DNA of 41,632 bases, from NCBI GenBank assembly GCA_023954475.1, contig JAMLHW010000023.1, forward strand, positions 1-41,632, written 5' to 3'. The translations under genes and the position numbers were made by a program. The notes under the pieces are model-generated. The model saw nothing but the letters and a program-made list of their open reading frames with translations, did not search any database and was not told where the DNA came from. Below are positions 24,080 through 31,106 of the stretch, piece after piece (position 1 is the stretch's first letter; each line of letters opens with the position of its first letter). Source of the DNA: Anaerolineae bacterium. GTDB taxonomy: Bacteria; Chloroflexota; Anaerolineae; Promineifilales; Promineifilaceae.

Positions 24080-25735
24080 ATGAACGTCCTGCGACAGGGT
24101 CTTCCGTTTCGGCTCTTCGCCCTGTTCTTCTTCCTACTTTCTGCCGCCGTCCTCATCATCGCTCTAGGCAGCCTGGCTCTGCACCAGAACGCCATGCGTG
24201 AACTGGTCGCTAACCGCGACGAACGCGCCGCACGTGCCGCCGCGACAGCTATCGTGGAACAGTTACGCCAGCGGATCACCTTGCTGGATGGTCTAGCTGT
24301 ACAAACTGCCGGAGGCGAAACGCCGCTCATTGTCGATCTTCTCGCCGATCAATTTGGCGGCGGCCTGGCAATCTGGTACGGCTCGCAACTAATCGCTACG
24401 AACGGTCTGGGAGCGTCGCACGTCAGTTTTGACCAGAACACAACGTTTTCGCCGTTGGTCTTTGACACCGCTACGCAGCAACTCGTACTCTACATCACAT
24501 CGATTCGCGACGATGCGACCGTCGTCGGCGGCATTTACCCGCGCCAACTGGTCGCCGAAACGGTAAACGCCATCGTACCCATCGGCGCAGAAACTGGCGT
24601 CATGGTCGTCGATTCGTCCGGGACAATTATCTACGAGCACACTAACTACGACGACGCCTTTGATTTTGGCGACCATCCGGGTGTAGTTGAGGCGCTGCGC
24701 GGCGAGACTGGTTCGCAATTTGCAGAGACGGTTGGCGGCGAACATGTGATCACCTATACGGCTGTCGAGCCGGTCGGCTGGGCACTGGTCATCGAAGAGC
24801 CATGGGAAGCGGTTGCCGGCAGCTTTTTAGACGCGACGTTGCTCGCGCCGCTGTTATTGGTTCCGCTGCTTTTAGCGGCGTTGCTGGCTTTGTGGTTTGG
24901 TGGTCGCGAGATCGTGCGACCTTTGCAGCAGTTGACGCGGCAGGCGACGGCTTTAGGCGCGGGGGAATTCGGCCGAATCGACGAACCGGTTGGTGGCATT
25001 GCCGAAATCCGACAGCTACAGAGCGAACTGCAGGCGATGGCGAGGCGCGTGGCGATGGCTCAGAGCAGCCTTCGCACTTATGCTGGCGCTGTTACCCAAG
25101 GCCAGGAAGAAGAACGGCGACGGCTGGCACGCGAGTTGCACGACGACACGGTACAATCCCTGATCGCCTTGAGCCAGCGCATCCAACTGGCCCAAATGAC
25201 CCCAGAAGCACCGCCGGAACTGGAAAAACTGCGCCAGATGACGCTGCAAATCATCAACGATGTGCGCCGTCTCATGCAGGCATTGCGCCCCAGCTACCTG
25301 GAAGATTTGGGCTTGCTGCCGACGCTGGAGATTCTCCTAGCAGACATGGAGGCGTCACACGACCTTGAAACTCGGCTTACGGTTGGGGGCGAGGCACGCC
25401 GTCTGCCGGCGGAAGCGGAACTTGTATTTTATCGCGTAGCACAGGAAGCATTGACGAACGTGGTCAGGCACGCACAGGCGACGTATGTCGTGGTGCACGT
25501 CCGATTTTCGGCCGAAGTGACAACGCTCACCATCCAAGACGACGGTAACGGATTCACACCGCCTACAACCCAGTCCGCATTTGCCGAACAAGGTCATTTC
25601 GGCCTACTCGGCATCTACGAGCGTGCTGAACTGCTCGGCGCACAGGCAACGGTATCGTCATCACCTGATGTGGGAACAACTGTTGCGATAGTGCTGCCGG
25701 TGCCGAAAAACCGATCGCGTGCTTCACTCTATTGA
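24080..25735 (+). CDS. Membrane sensor histidine kinase, DegS/NarX (HisKA_3) type
   Basis: The protein is 551 residues. TM1 is at about 11-33 and TM2 at 254-274, enclosing an outer sensor of about 220 residues that looks like a single Cache/dCache domain ([31 protein letters not shown]). A HAMP linker follows ([25 protein letters not shown]). The HisKA_3 phosphorylation site is His354 in [19 protein letters not shown]. The ATPase domain has the N-box ([13 protein letters not shown]), DDGNGF at 487-492 and GHFGLLGI at 505-512. It should phosphorylate the adjacent response regulator in answer to a small ligand outside the cell. Its last 12 bases overlap the end of the convergent P-ATPase gene. 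Confidence 0.93.
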
Positions 25736-27859
25736 GAGGTCAACACGGCGCAACATTTGGGCGTTGATGGCAACGATGATCGTACTCAGAGACATGAGTA
25801 TTGCCCCCAGCGCGGGCGGCATGATGAATCCGAACGGTGCCAAAATGCCAGCCGCCAGCGGGATCATGACGATGTTGTAGCCTGCGCCCCACCAGATATT
25901 TTGCTTCTGTTTGCGGAAACTGGCCTGGCTCAGTCGCAAAATCTTGACCACATCCAACGGGTTGCTCTGCACGAGGATCAATTCGGCCGATTCCACAGCT
26001 ACATCCGTCCCGCTGCCGATAGCAATGCCGATGTCAGCACGTGTCAACGCCGGCGCATCGTTGACGCCATCGCCGACCATCGCCACGCGCTTGCCCTCGC
26101 GCTGCAATGCGACGACTTTCTGATCTTTATCCTCCGGCAACACCTCTGCAAAGTAATGGTCAATGTCCAGTTCTGCGGCAACTGCCCGGGCGACATCGCG
26201 GCTGTCGCCCGTCAGCATGGCAACCGCTATACCCATCTCGTGCAGGGCACGCACTGCCGTGCCGCTTTCCTCTCGAATCACATCGGCCAGGGCAAATGCC
26301 GCCACTATATCTTGTTCGCGCACCAGGTAGACCACGGTTTGCCCCTTTTCGCCGGCAGATTGCGCAAACTCAGCCAGTTTTGGTACGGGTTCCACTTCCA
26401 GAAATTGCAGCAAACGCGGCCCACCGACGTAGACAGTTTGATCATTGTGAACGGCTTTGACACCCTGTCCTTTCAAAATCTCGAATTTGCTGATGGCGGG
26501 GAGAGTGAGTTGTCGCTCTTCGGCCGATTGACGGATGGCACGCGCAATGGGATGTTCTGAATCGCCTTCCACAGCGGCAGTGATTGCCAACGCCTCATCA
26601 GCCGCCAGCATATCTGTCACAACGCTGGCGGCAACACCGATTTCTGCCCTGGTCAGTGTTCCTGTCTTGTCGAAGACGATGACATCCACATCTTTGGCCG
26701 TTTCCATCGCCCGACGGTCGCGAATTAATATGCCGTTTTCTGCACCCAAGGCTGTTGTGTTAGCAACCACGAGGGGTACGGCCAACCCTAGCGCATGGGG
26801 ACAAGCAATGACCAGAATAGTGACGACGATGGCGACGACCTGGGCGGTGACACTGCCATAGTAAATTGACCAGATGACGCCTGCCAGCAGCGCGACCAAC
26901 ACAGCGGCATAAAAGAGCAGTGACGCTGCCTTGTCGGCTAGCAGTTGCGTCTGCGATTTGCTTTGTAGTGCTTCATCTACCAAGCGCATAATGCCGGAAA
27001 GGGTAGTGTCCTCGCCGACGGCAGTGACGCGCAAGCGCAAGCTGCCGTTGCCGGCGTTGATCGTCCCGGCGATGACCTGGGAGTCCACTGTTTTCATGAC
27101 CGGTTTGGACTCGCCAGTGATCATCGCTTCGTTGAGTTCGGATGCACCTTCGATGACAATGCCGTCCGCCGGGACGATTGCGCCGGGTCGCACGAGGACC
27201 ACATCGTCGCGTTGTAGATGGTCAACGGGATGTTCCTCAACGCTGCCGTCGGGTTGTATGATTTCGGCCGAATCCGGCATCAATTTTGCCAGTGAATCCA
27301 GCGCACCCGACGCCTGGCGCACGCTGCGCATCTCCAGCCAGTGGCCGAGCAACATGATGTCGATCAACGTGACCAGTTCCCAGAAAAAGTCCTCTCCGAT
27401 CTCCCAGACGAGCGTCGCCATGCTGTAGAAATAAGCGACGCTAATTGCCAACGAAATCAGGGTCATCATGCCCGGACTGCGGTCGCGTAATTCCCACGTC
27501 GCCATCCTGAGAAACGGCAAACCGCCATAAAGGAAGATGATGGTGGACAGCACCGGAACGATGAGCAAACTGCCGGGAAAAACCGGCACCGTATAGCCAA
27601 ACCACGATTGAATGGCTGGACTGTAGATAATGACCGGAATGCTTAACGCCAAAATGATCCAGAACCGGTTGCGAAACATGATTTCGTGGCCGGTGTGGTC
27701 GTGGTGGCCGGTGTGAGCCTTGTCGTCTGCATGACGGTGATCGGCATGTTTGTCGTGGACGGCATGATCGGCCAAGATGTCTCGTCGTCCCTCCATCTCG
27801 CAAATGCGACAGCAGGTGCAACGGTCGTTTTTCCGCTCGGAATGTGTGTGTGTGGTCAT
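25724..27859 (-). CDS. Heavy-metal P1B-type ATPase, CPH (CopB-like) subtype
   Basis: The protein is 711 residues. The N-terminus is a metal-binding tail: TCCRICEM near residue 15, then a His/Asp-rich stretch (about residues 32-59) in place of the usual Cys-based HMA domain. Eight helices are expected. The translocation motif is CPH ([13 protein letters not shown], about residue 354), typical of CopB-type copper or silver ATPases. The phosphorylated Asp is in DKTGTLT (about 395), the hinge is GDGVND (about 597) and the actuator has a TGES loop (MITGESKPV). It exports copper, or possibly silver, using ATP. Across a 270-bp gap with inverted repeats it is divergent from the thiol-redox genes. Confidence 0.92.
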
Positions 27860-28128: not shown

Positions 28129-28551
28129 ATGGAGAAAGACAGATTCATGCGTTCACGACTGCGTTGGCTGCTGGCCTTTGTCGTCGTCTGGCTGGCAGTC
28201 GGTTGCACACAGTTACCAACCGTACAACCGGGCATATCGCTGCCAGATGCCGGTCTGTTGCCGGATACAGAACAGCCACTCTTTGTCTTGTTCTACACAG
28301 ACAACTGACCGCCTTGAGCGCAATTTACGCCTATCGTGAATGGGCTGGAGACAGAATTTGACGGAAAGGTGACATTTGTGCGGCTGAACGCAGCGCAGCG
28401 CGAGGTAGAGCAGTTACAGCAGCAGCTTGGTTTGCGCGGGCATCCCGCCGTCGGCCTGCTCAACAGTAAAGGCCACCTTGTTGAGCGCTATTTTGGCGTA
28501 CAATCGGCCGAAACTCTGCGTCAACGTCTGCAAAGGCTGGCATCGCCCTGA
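28129..28551 (+). CDS. Thioredoxin-like lipoprotein with two in-frame TGA codons at CxxC (putative UxxU selenoprotein)
   Basis: From the ATG at 28129 (GAGGGA upstream) the frame reads a lipoprotein signal with lipobox LAVGC (Cys26), then a thioredoxin fold: strand PLFVLFYTDN, active-site segment, AQFTPIVNGLETEF, strand KVTFVRLNAA, the cis-Pro loop RGHPAVGLLN (Pro106) and the last helix ETLRQRLQRL. The only interruptions are TGA at 28306-28308 (residue 60) and 28315-28317 (residue 63), exactly the two Cys positions of CxxC, giving X-Pro-Pro-X. TGA is the normal stop of several genes nearby. A candidate SECIS hairpin lies just downstream. I infer UxxU selenocysteine; a doubly mutated pseudogene is the alternative. 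Gene callers would split it (28099-28308; 28336-28551). Confidence 0.7.
28329..28345 (+). promoter_or_regulatory. Candidate bacterial SECIS-like hairpin
   Basis: GCCTAT (28329-28334) pairs with ATGGGC (28340-28345), with one U-G wobble, around the five-base loop CGTGA, whose second base is G. The loop begins 17 bases after the second TGA and 26 after the first. That is within the spacing and loop-G pattern known for bacterial SECIS elements, which bind SelB. The stem is short and unscored. Confidence 0.4.
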
Positions 28552-28583: not shown

Positions 28584-29105
28584 GTGCGAACAACATCCAG
28601 ACGCAAACGACGCGAACAGTACCAACGCCACGAACGACGCAATCGCATCATCTACGGCATAATCGGCGGTATCGTCCTGCTCGCCATCGTCGCCATGGTA
28701 ACCGTCTTGCCTTCGCCAAACCAGCGGCTGCGTGCCGACTTTGAGCCGACCACGCTCAGCATAGGTGAACAAGTCTATGTCCAACAATGCGCCGTCTGTC
28801 ACGGCATCAACCTCGAAGGTCAGCTCAACTGGCGAGAAGGCAACGCCGACGGCACATTCCGCGCCCCACCGCACGACGAAACGGGGCACACCTGGCATCA
28901 TGGCGACAGCTATTTGCTGGAACGTATTCGCACGGGAACGGCTACGATGAGCCCCGACATGCAGGCGGCCAGCAACATGCCCGGATACGAAGGCATTCTC
29001 ACCGACGAAGAAATGCAAGCCGTATTGGCATATATCAAGGAAGCGTGGCCGACCGACATTCAACGTTCGCAAGCTCGCGCCACAGCCGCCGAGCCTACCC
29101 AATAG
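28584..29105 (+). CDS. Membrane-anchored cytochrome c
   Basis: It starts with GTG at 28584 after GGAGAG. The protein is 173 residues. A very basic cytoplasmic start (RRKRREQYQRHERRNR) precedes one membrane anchor (IIYGIIGGIVLLAIVAMVTVL, 22-42). The haem site is CAVCH (Cys69, Cys72, His73), and NMPGY supplies the likely axial Met132. It is a class I monohaem electron carrier facing outside. It lies 32 bp after the thioredoxin-like gene and 27 bp before the DsbA-repeat gene, so the three look like one operon. It could pass electrons between thiol-redox proteins and the respiratory chain. Confidence 0.88.
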   Translation: MRTTSRRKRREQYQRHERRNRIIYGIIGGIVLLAIVAMVTVLPSPNQRLRADFEPTTLSIGEQVYVQQCAVCHGINLEGQLNWREGNADGTFRAPPHDETGHTWHHGDSYLLERIRTGTATMSPDMQAASNMPGYEGILTDEEMQAVLAYIKEAWPTDIQRSQARATAAEPTQ

Positions 29106-29132: not shown

Positions 29133-31106
29133 ATGATGAAGAAATGCAGCGTATTCCTGGCGATGGCGTTTGCTGTTTTGTTTCTGGTGGCCTGTCAACC
29201 ACCCGATCCTGTTGGCCTACCGGATGAAGTGGGTGAGGTTGATGTGGTTTCGGCCGAAAACGGCCCCGCCGAAAAACCCGTTTCTCCCACCTTTCCCGGC
29301 CTGACCGCCGAGGGCGACTTGTTGGCTCTGGGCGACCCCAACGCCCCGATCGCGATGGTCGAGTACTCCGATTTTCAATGTCCATTTTGCCGCCGCTACG
29401 CCGAACAAACCTTTGTTCAAATCAAACGGGAGTGGATCGACACGGGCCAGGTGTACTACGTCTTCCGCGATTTCCCGATAGCAGGCCTACATCCACTGGC
29501 TTACCGCCTCCACGAAGCCGCCCGCTGCGTCGCCGCTGCCGACCTTGACGCCTTCTGGCAGGCCCACGACCTGTTCTTCGCCCAGGCGGAACGCTTTCAG
29601 GTGCAATCCGAGGCGGCCATGGACGGAGCCATTTTGGCTGCACTCGCCGAAGCCGGGCTGCCCGATGTCGCCGCGTGTTTACAGAACGGGGAATTTGCTG
29701 CGGTGGTGCAGGCAGGCGTCGCCGAAGGTCAGGCACGCGGTGTGCGCGGCACGCCGTCATTTTTCGTCGACGGCAATTTGTTTGCCGGCGCACAACCATA
29801 CACTGTTTTTGAACAATATCTGACCGCTGCCGGTGATGGAACGTTGGCCGCTTTGCTGCAGCCGACACCAGTTCCTGCGCAGGCTGGTGCGCCAGTCGCT
29901 GCACCGACACCGGCGACGATTGAGCCGCGCCCTGTAAGCGCCCTGGGCGATCCCGATGCGCAGGTGACCATTGTCGAATATTCTGATTTTCAATGCCCGT
30001 TTTGCCGCCGTCATCATCAGCAAACGCTACCCTCATTACTGCAAAACCACGTCGAAACGGGGCGCGTTTACTACGTATTCAAGGATTACCCGATTGCCAA
30101 CCTGCATCCGCTGGCTTATCGGCTCCACGAAGCGGCATTGTGCGTCGGCGAGACAGTGGGTGCAGACGGTTTCTGGCTGGCGCACGATCTCTTTTTTGAC
30201 CAGGCTGAGCATTTCCAGGTCGATACGGTGGCGGCGATGGATGCTGCTGTGATCGACGCGCTAGCCGCTGCCGGGTTGCTGACGACAGTAGTGGAGGATT
30301 GTTTTGTCAATGGCGAGAAATCGGCCGAAGTGCAGGCCAACATTGCCGAAGCCCAGGCGCTGGGTGTAACCGGTACACCAGCGTTTTTCATCAACGGCTA
30401 TCCGCTGACGGGGGCGCAACCGCTGCAAACGTTCGAATATGCGATTGGCCTGGCAGAAGAAGGTACGATCGCTGATGCGTACCAGCCGCGCAACGGGCCG
30501 AATGATGGCAAGGCACAAGCCACAGCTACGGCGCAAGCCACCGGCCCGGTCGATGTGCCGCTTGGCGATGCGCCAGCCAAAGGTTCGGTCGATGCGCCCA
30601 TCACCATAGTCGAATACTCCGACTACCAATGCCCATTCTGCCTGCGCCACTTCACCGACACCATGCTGGAGATTCAGCGCTACATCGACGCTGGACAGGT
30701 GCGTTACGTATTCAAGGATTTTCCGCTGCACAACATCCATCCGCAGGCGGAAAAGGCCCACGAAGCAGCGCGCTGCGCTCGTGAACAGGGTGGAGACGAC
30801 GCGTACTGGCAGATGCACGACCTGCTGTTTACCAACCAGTCGGCTTGGGGACAGGCACCGCTCGACCAGCACAGCGATGTGATCAAAGAATTGGCGGCAG
30901 AAGCCAGTCTGGACCAGAGTGCGTTTGATGTGTGTTTGGACAGTGGTCGTCATGCAACGGCGATCAACAACGACTTGCAGGAAGGGTCGCGGCTGGGTGT
31001 GCGCGGGACGCCAGCGTTTTTCATCAACGGCCAGTTTGTGAGCGGTGCGCAGCCGTTTGCCGTCTTTGACCAGGCGATTCAGCAGGCGCTAGCATCGGCC
31101 GAATGA
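29133..31106 (+). CDS. Lipoprotein with three tandem DsbA-like thioredoxin domains
   Basis: The protein is 657 residues. The signal ends in lipobox LVAC (Cys21). Three DsbA/thioredoxin_4 domains follow, each opening with (V)EYSD(F/Y)QCPFC. The active cysteine pairs are Cys83/86, Cys288/291 and Cys500/503, each with a later cis-Pro motif (RGTPSFF, TGTPAFF, RGTPAFF). Linkers are Ala/Pro/Thr-rich. All three sites are complete CPFC, so the protein should oxidise or isomerise thiols of exported proteins, with three active sites on one anchor. Single-domain relatives are usual; three in one chain is rare. It ends with a TCGGCCGA copy coding Ser-Ala-Glu just before the stop. Confidence 0.9.
   Translation: MMKKCSVFLAMAFAVLFLVACQPPDPVGLPDEVGEVDVVSAENGPAEKPVSPTFPGLTAEGDLLALGDPNAPIAMVEYSDFQCPFCRRYAEQTFVQIKREWIDTGQVYYVFRDFPIAGLHPLAYRLHEAARCVAAADLDAFWQAHDLFFAQAERFQVQSEAAMDGAILAALAEAGLPDVAACLQNGEFAAVVQAGVAEGQARGVRGTPSFFVDGNLFAGAQPYTVFEQYLTAAGDGTLAALLQPTPVPAQAGAPVAAPTPATIEPRPVSALGDPDAQVTIVEYSDFQCPFCRRHHQQTLPSLLQNHVETGRVYYVFKDYPIANLHPLAYRLHEAALCVGETVGADGFWLAHDLFFDQAEHFQVDTVAAMDAAVIDALAAAGLLTTVVEDCFVNGEKSAEVQANIAEAQALGVTGTPAFFINGYPLTGAQPLQTFEYAIGLAEEGTIADAYQPRNGPNDGKAQATATAQATGPVDVPLGDAPAKGSVDAPITIVEYSDYQCPFCLRHFTDTMLEIQRYIDAGQVRYVFKDFPLHNIHPQAEKAHEAARCAREQGGDDAYWQMHDLLFTNQSAWGQAPLDQHSDVIKELAAEASLDQSAFDVCLDSGRHATAINNDLQEGSRLGVRGTPAFFINGQFVSGAQPFAVFDQAIQQALASAE

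Follow-up and report, generated by a model that had tools for sequence, protein, structure and literature searches.

The gene and its surroundings

The window, that is, the whole stretch of 41,632 nucleotides that was analysed, contains a short gene for a thioredoxin-like lipoprotein whose reading frame is crossed by two TGA codons. The features of the locus are the following:

25724..27859, minus strand: copper-type P-type ATPase (CopB-like) with a His-rich N-terminus and a CPH motif, divergent from the thioredoxin gene
28129..28551, plus strand: predicted UxxU thioredoxin lipoprotein gene, 140 aa with two putative Sec, stop TGA included
28306..28308, plus strand: UGA1, predicted Sec60, first (nucleophilic) CxxC position of thioredoxin
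28315..28317, plus strand: UGA2, predicted Sec63, second (resolving) CxxC position
28329..28345, plus strand: SECIS-like hairpin GCCUAU-CGUGA-AUGGGC, loop 28335-28339, recognised by pairing, covariation and codon choice
28584..29105, plus strand: cytochrome c gene (PF00034, 44.9 bits) with CAVCH, the APPHDETGHTWHH motif and an N-terminal membrane anchor
29133..31106, plus strand: lipoprotein with three DsbA-like domains (Thioredoxin_4, three times), each with CPFC, all Cys

When TGA is read as a residue, the frame starts at ATG 28129 and ends at the stop TGA 28549-28551. Translation confirmed the extent and coordinates of the 140-codon frame that a sequence-only reading of this DNA had described, with its intact lipobox (LAVGC, Cys26) and predicted cis-Pro loop (GHP, with P106 invariant across the alignment). 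No in-frame stop occurs besides the two TGAs and the terminal one, and the two fall exactly on the CxxC positions, as that reading had also stated; the active-site segment is FYTDN-U60-P-P-U63 and continues as AQFTPIVNGL. The neighbouring cytochrome c and triple DsbA-like genes that it had mentioned were found as listed above.

The protein matches the Pfam Thioredoxin profile PF00085 over residues 47-135 with 40.9 bits (cut-off 23.5), and a search of NCBIfam gave no model at its cut-off. In the AlphaFold2 model (pLDDT 89), strands and helices follow one another as in thioredoxin and the active site opens a helix at residue 61; its top structural matches in the PDB are thioredoxins, with an rmsd of 1.2-1.9 over about 90 columns. 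The CxxC dithiol of PF00085 is replaced by UGA at both positions; the protein is thus a member of PF00085 by homology, with a changed active site. A lipobox-like motif is found by a strict pattern in 50 of the 59 UxxU members described below and is visible in most of the remaining ones, and a lipid anchor is predicted to hold the thioredoxin at an extracytoplasmic site.

Homologues, phylogeny and selection

With the window protein as query, 15 of 59 genomes gave two-TGA homologues with E values under 1e-11, and an alignment-based search of 396 genomes of the class added to these. A scan of genome contigs by a pattern that back-translates Cys, and so is unable to match TGA, yielded CxxC homologues only. 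The fetched loci that were read comprise 59 UxxU (window included), 40 UxxC and 25 CxxC sequences, so that UxxU, UxxC or CxxC is found at the aligned positions, where the sequence-only reading had proposed to look; loci with two TGAs were preferentially fetched, although nearly all the higher-scoring matches that had a single TGA or none were also read, these lying outside the UxxU clade. Besides the window copy, 58 further homologues from related genomes carry TGA at both positions, which bears out the earlier argument that a chance pair of nonsense mutations is unlikely. TGA1 is present in all UxxU and UxxC members, and the CxxC homologues have a Cys codon there; TGA2 is present in 55/55 members of the main UxxU clade. 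Only 1 among the 59 predicted UxxU ORFs has an extra in-frame TGA.

A maximum likelihood tree was built from 118 sequences, in which Sec was coded as Cys to keep the motif from biasing the topology. One clade spanning many families of the class contains 55 of the 57 UxxU rows (support 97/77), and the remaining two, L030 and L079, are a pair within a UxxC group (support 100/98); on this short alignment, whose deep forks are weak, the clade of 55 and the separate pair indicate two UxxU origins by parsimony. L030 (G025, WUSTU) and L079 (G002, WUTTU) represent a second independent UxxU thioredoxin lipoprotein with the same hairpin, and the L079 hairpin carries a compensatory A-U to G-C change. One additional UxxU sequence, L221, comes from outside the class, and no relatives were found in the viral contigs searched.

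Downstream of the UGAs and the hairpin, dN/dS between close relatives is 0.05-0.29 wherever dS is unsaturated. The recurrence of both TGAs, together with these values, argues that translation continues through both UGAs.

A side observation among the UxxC members is a tandem pair of predicted thioredoxin selenoprotein genes (L026/L076, G056:C42:27083-27809; UPIC and UPYC), with the hairpin in each.

A SECIS-like hairpin downstream of the UGA codons

A conserved SECIS-like hairpin, absent from the sequence-only reading, lies just downstream of the UGAs. In the window it has 6 bp and the loop CGUGA, which lies 26 nt downstream of UGA1 and 17 nt downstream of UGA2. The consensus of the hairpin is CCCAU-CGUGN-AUGGG, it encodes PIV[N/D/H]GL, and its spacing is fixed in UxxU and UxxC members; the CxxC homologues are without it. 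Across 58 distinct UxxU sequences, standard pairs make up 95% of the cells in the six-pair stem; when the partners are slid the value reaches 72% at most, and in the CxxC homologues it is about 39%. The stem also covaries: columns 27-35 change from A-U to G-C in 4 UxxU and 10 UxxC sequences, and columns 26-36 from C-G to U-A in 1 UxxU and 8 UxxC sequences. Codon usage follows the stem, since the stem Gly codon is GGG in 50/51 cases (75/292 elsewhere in the same genes) and the stem Pro codon is CCC in 52/56 (99/318 elsewhere), both counts being uncorrected for relatedness. Codon choice is thus forced by the stem, which makes PIV[N/D/H]GL an RNA signal, at least in part.

The MFE is -8.8 for the window, folded over the 42 nt after UGA2, and it is -7.5 or lower in 54 of the 59 UxxU members; the window stem includes one G-U pair and its energy is modest. 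The bacterial SECIS model of PMC13188914 comprises a spacing of 16-37 nt, a loop of 3-9 nt, a G in the first two loop positions and an MFE of -7.5 or lower, and both spacings of the window hairpin, as well as its loop, fall within these limits. No SECIS family was found by an Rfam search at the locus. A DNA-pattern search for the hairpin in the genome to which the window belongs gave no match, the window copy included, which reads CCT where the pattern has CCR.

One SECIS apparently serves both UGAs; this is the simplest reading of the sequences, because both loop spacings lie inside the published limits. The UxxC paralogues, with the hairpin at the same place, indicate that the 26-nt spacing serves a lone UGA1, and a 17-nt spacing resembling the UGA2 geometry recurs after the lone UGA of another lipoprotein gene of this genome, described below. 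A separate second SECIS for UGA2 was considered and rejected as unlikely, since the 60 nt that were folded showed no other conserved hairpin.

In a CxxC homologue from another class (L216, G420:C292:3683-4045; CPFC), part of the hairpin sequence is retained, GCCCGTCGTGGACGAG; it is possibly a fossil SECIS left after a Sec-to-Cys reversion.

Selenocysteine machinery and decoding of the two UGA codons

The genome is of 5.12 Mb and 98% complete. The sequence-only reading had called the gene a putative UxxU selenoprotein and had proposed a search for selA, selB, selC and selD; all four were found in the same genome, with 546 bits for selA, 354 bits for selB, and a tRNA-Sec (selC) with anticodon UCA. 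SelD is itself in the Sec form (SCAGUASK; L136, G000:C12:502257-503192). A lipoprotein of the NF041057 family encoded elsewhere in this genome (L222, G000:C26:195346-196140) has UxxC, with TGA in DYSDFLUGTC and a predicted hairpin whose CGUGU loop lies 17 nt after this lone UGA; by its sequence, L222 is another selenoprotein of this genome. Across genomes, selA is present in 15/15 of those with a strong two-TGA match, and two nearly complete genomes with no selA match (G041 and G054) have Cys homologues only.

From these sequence data, the gene very probably encodes an envelope-anchored thioredoxin with both active-site Cys replaced by Sec (U-P-P-U). SelB with Sec-tRNA would use the same hairpin twice, at UGA1 first and at UGA2 three codons later, and the ribosome could also often terminate at UGA1 or UGA2.

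Three other explanations of the TGA codons were weighed. Only UGA1 might be read as Sec, UGA2 being a conserved stop that either shortens the product or provides a switch responding to selenium. The UxxC paralogues, in which the position of the hairpin suits UGA1 alone, agree with this; nevertheless it is very unlikely, because purifying selection acts strongly on the protein sequence that follows UGA2, which includes the thioredoxin core and the cis-Pro loop, UGA2 stands precisely at the aligned position of the resolving Cys, and its 17-nt spacing is a permitted one for a SECIS. Alternatively, UGA might encode another residue with no selenium involved, for example Cys, inserted by an opal tRNA, or Trp, if the code were altered, and homologues do have Cys at these positions. 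A suppressor tRNA, however, needs no SECIS, yet the hairpin is kept in the members with UGA and absent in those with Cys, and the complete set of SelA, SelB, SelD and tRNA-Sec is present. TGA is also a normal stop here: it ends 9 of the 21 larger ORFs of the window, in agreement with the earlier statement that the code is not globally changed, and it ends the adjacent ATPase and DsbA-like genes, although the earlier attribution of TGA stops to the genes next to this one fails for the cytochrome c gene, which ends with TAG. A changed genetic code was therefore rejected, and decoding as another residue is extremely improbable. Finally, a pseudogene or a sequencing error, in which a CxxC thioredoxin gene was struck by two nonsense changes, would fit a short gene with two in-frame stops that annotation software would break, but its probability is negligible and it was rejected on conservation and dN/dS, since the same TGA pair occurs in the other 58 sequences from many genera and families, purifying selection persists downstream and the compensated hairpin is retained.

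Bacterial SECIS elements are described as serving one nearby UGA over a limited distance. Under the two-Sec reading, a single hairpin has long been maintained throughout this family together with two UGAs that are 9 nt from each other, and the switch to UxxU arose at least twice; the flexibility of SelB with one SECIS is thus directly testable.

Comparison with known selenoproteins

The two-Sec thioredoxin family appears genuine from its sequences and, as far as can be checked, uncatalogued. In a 2026 inventory (PMC13188914) the row for thioredoxin PF00085 is UxxC, with one Sec, and there is no PF00085 UxxU entry, within an open-access literature outside which an earlier mention is possible. 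These UxxC selenoproteins share with the window protein the family, the fold, Sec at the first position and a SECIS just downstream; the window protein differs in having predicted Sec at the second position too, in being a lipoprotein and in its own gene neighbourhood. The UxxU genes may be missing from inventories because standard annotation would cut them at the TGAs.

The sequence-only reading had considered UxxU unusual. It is indeed uncommon, but precedents exist, namely SelL and Prx-like selenoproteins. UxxU is known in the Prx-like thiol:disulfide oxidoreductases (PF00578, UxxC/UxxU), in some GOS Prx-like 2 proteins, in the NF041115 metal-binding family, in an FmdB-type protein and in two SELENOW proteins. 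PF00578 and GOS Prx-like 2 proteins are likewise bacterial or archaeal selenoproteins of thioredoxin fold with UxxU, but they belong to the peroxiredoxin-like branch, and membership of the window protein in the PF00578 UxxU family was rejected, as no PF00578 match was found up to E 0.1. Nor did it match the NF041115 model in NCBIfam up to E 1. The NF041057 (Rcas_1661) family likewise consists of envelope lipoproteins of thioredoxin fold with Sec in some members, which are DsbA/DsbG-like with UxxC and not classical UxxU thioredoxins; of the copies in this genome, the Sec copy lies elsewhere, and the all-Cys triple copy is beside the thioredoxin gene.

SelL, a Prx-like protein, has the UxxU motif in common with the window thioredoxin; this redox motif is reported to form an intramolecular diselenide in SelL. 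In eukaryotes, a SECIS in the 3'UTR can serve several UGAs, while the bacterial SECIS of the window gene lies inside the coding sequence. The title of Shchedrina et al. 2007 (via PMC2398784) presents SelL as a diselenide selenoprotein of aquatic organisms.

Genomic neighbourhood and possible role

A cytochrome c gene homologous to that of the window (28584-29105), on the same strand and within 1.5 kb, accompanies 18/59 UxxU genes, against 0/65 UxxC/CxxC genes (Fisher p 3e-7). Within 4.5 kb, cytochrome c occurs in 22/55 UxxU loci, with 27/27 copies on the same strand; many UxxU loci have none within the DNA examined, and all neighbour counts depend on contig ends. In one frame, L123 (G088:C176, minus strand, 1135-1938), the UxxU thioredoxin and a cytochrome c domain are joined, in the order lipobox, UAPU thioredoxin and cytochrome c with CAACH and APPHDSTGHTWHH.

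The triple DsbA-like lipoprotein of the window belongs to the NF041057 (Rcas_1661 seleno-lipoprotein) family, with 371.7 bits (cut-off 190), and lipoproteins of this type are neighbours in several UxxU loci; other members of the family have Sec. The family name Rcas_1661 is a hint that the genome may be from Chloroflexota. The ATPase matches TIGR01511 with 577 bits (cut-off 397), and a heavy-metal P-type ATPase family is found near 18/55 UxxU loci. Also recurrent near UxxU genes are DsbA-like, DUF2085, CsoR-type repressor, cupredoxin, DUF1573 and PCYCGC proteins, as well as DUF3105, near 11 loci. By association, these recurrent neighbours suggest a function in the redox handling of copper and thiols in the envelope, for which cytochrome c would be the partner.

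The mature lipoprotein would switch between diselenol and intramolecular diselenide forms, acting as a fast oxidoreductase outside the cytoplasm. Selenium chemistry leads one to expect a low diselenide potential, from which the UxxU site would be strongly reducing. The redox partner might be the adjacent cytochrome c, within the copper and envelope-thiol gene set, a weaker part of the proposal. That a SECIS is used twice within three codons and that the resulting diselenide thioredoxin exchanges electrons directly with cytochrome c is, taken as a whole, a tentative proposal; if true, the envelope would have a redox relay based on selenium against copper or thiol stress. Such a protein would give the classic thioredoxin active site a natural counterpart made entirely with selenium, for which cytochrome c is a candidate partner.

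It is conceivable, if doubtful, that the job of the two-Sec protein is instead the reduction of apocytochrome c or CuA-site thiols, as in ResA/CcmG/TlpA-like maturation, and not exchange with the mature cytochrome. An extracytoplasmic thioredoxin adjoining a cytochrome c gene is suggestive of such a role. So are its slight resemblance to ResA (16.6 bits, cut-off 170), the copper genes nearby and the 4 loci in which a TlpA/ResA-like cluster is among the neighbours. The fusion with a mature cytochrome c domain in L123, however, is no less compatible with a redox partner, and the neighbour clusters that were read and could be assigned include no cytochrome-assembly gene.

At one further locus (L025/L172, G017:C26:39131-39340), a ULPU thioredoxin immediately follows a DUF3105 gene; its N-terminal part is out of frame, which suggests an assembly frameshift or a damaged copy.
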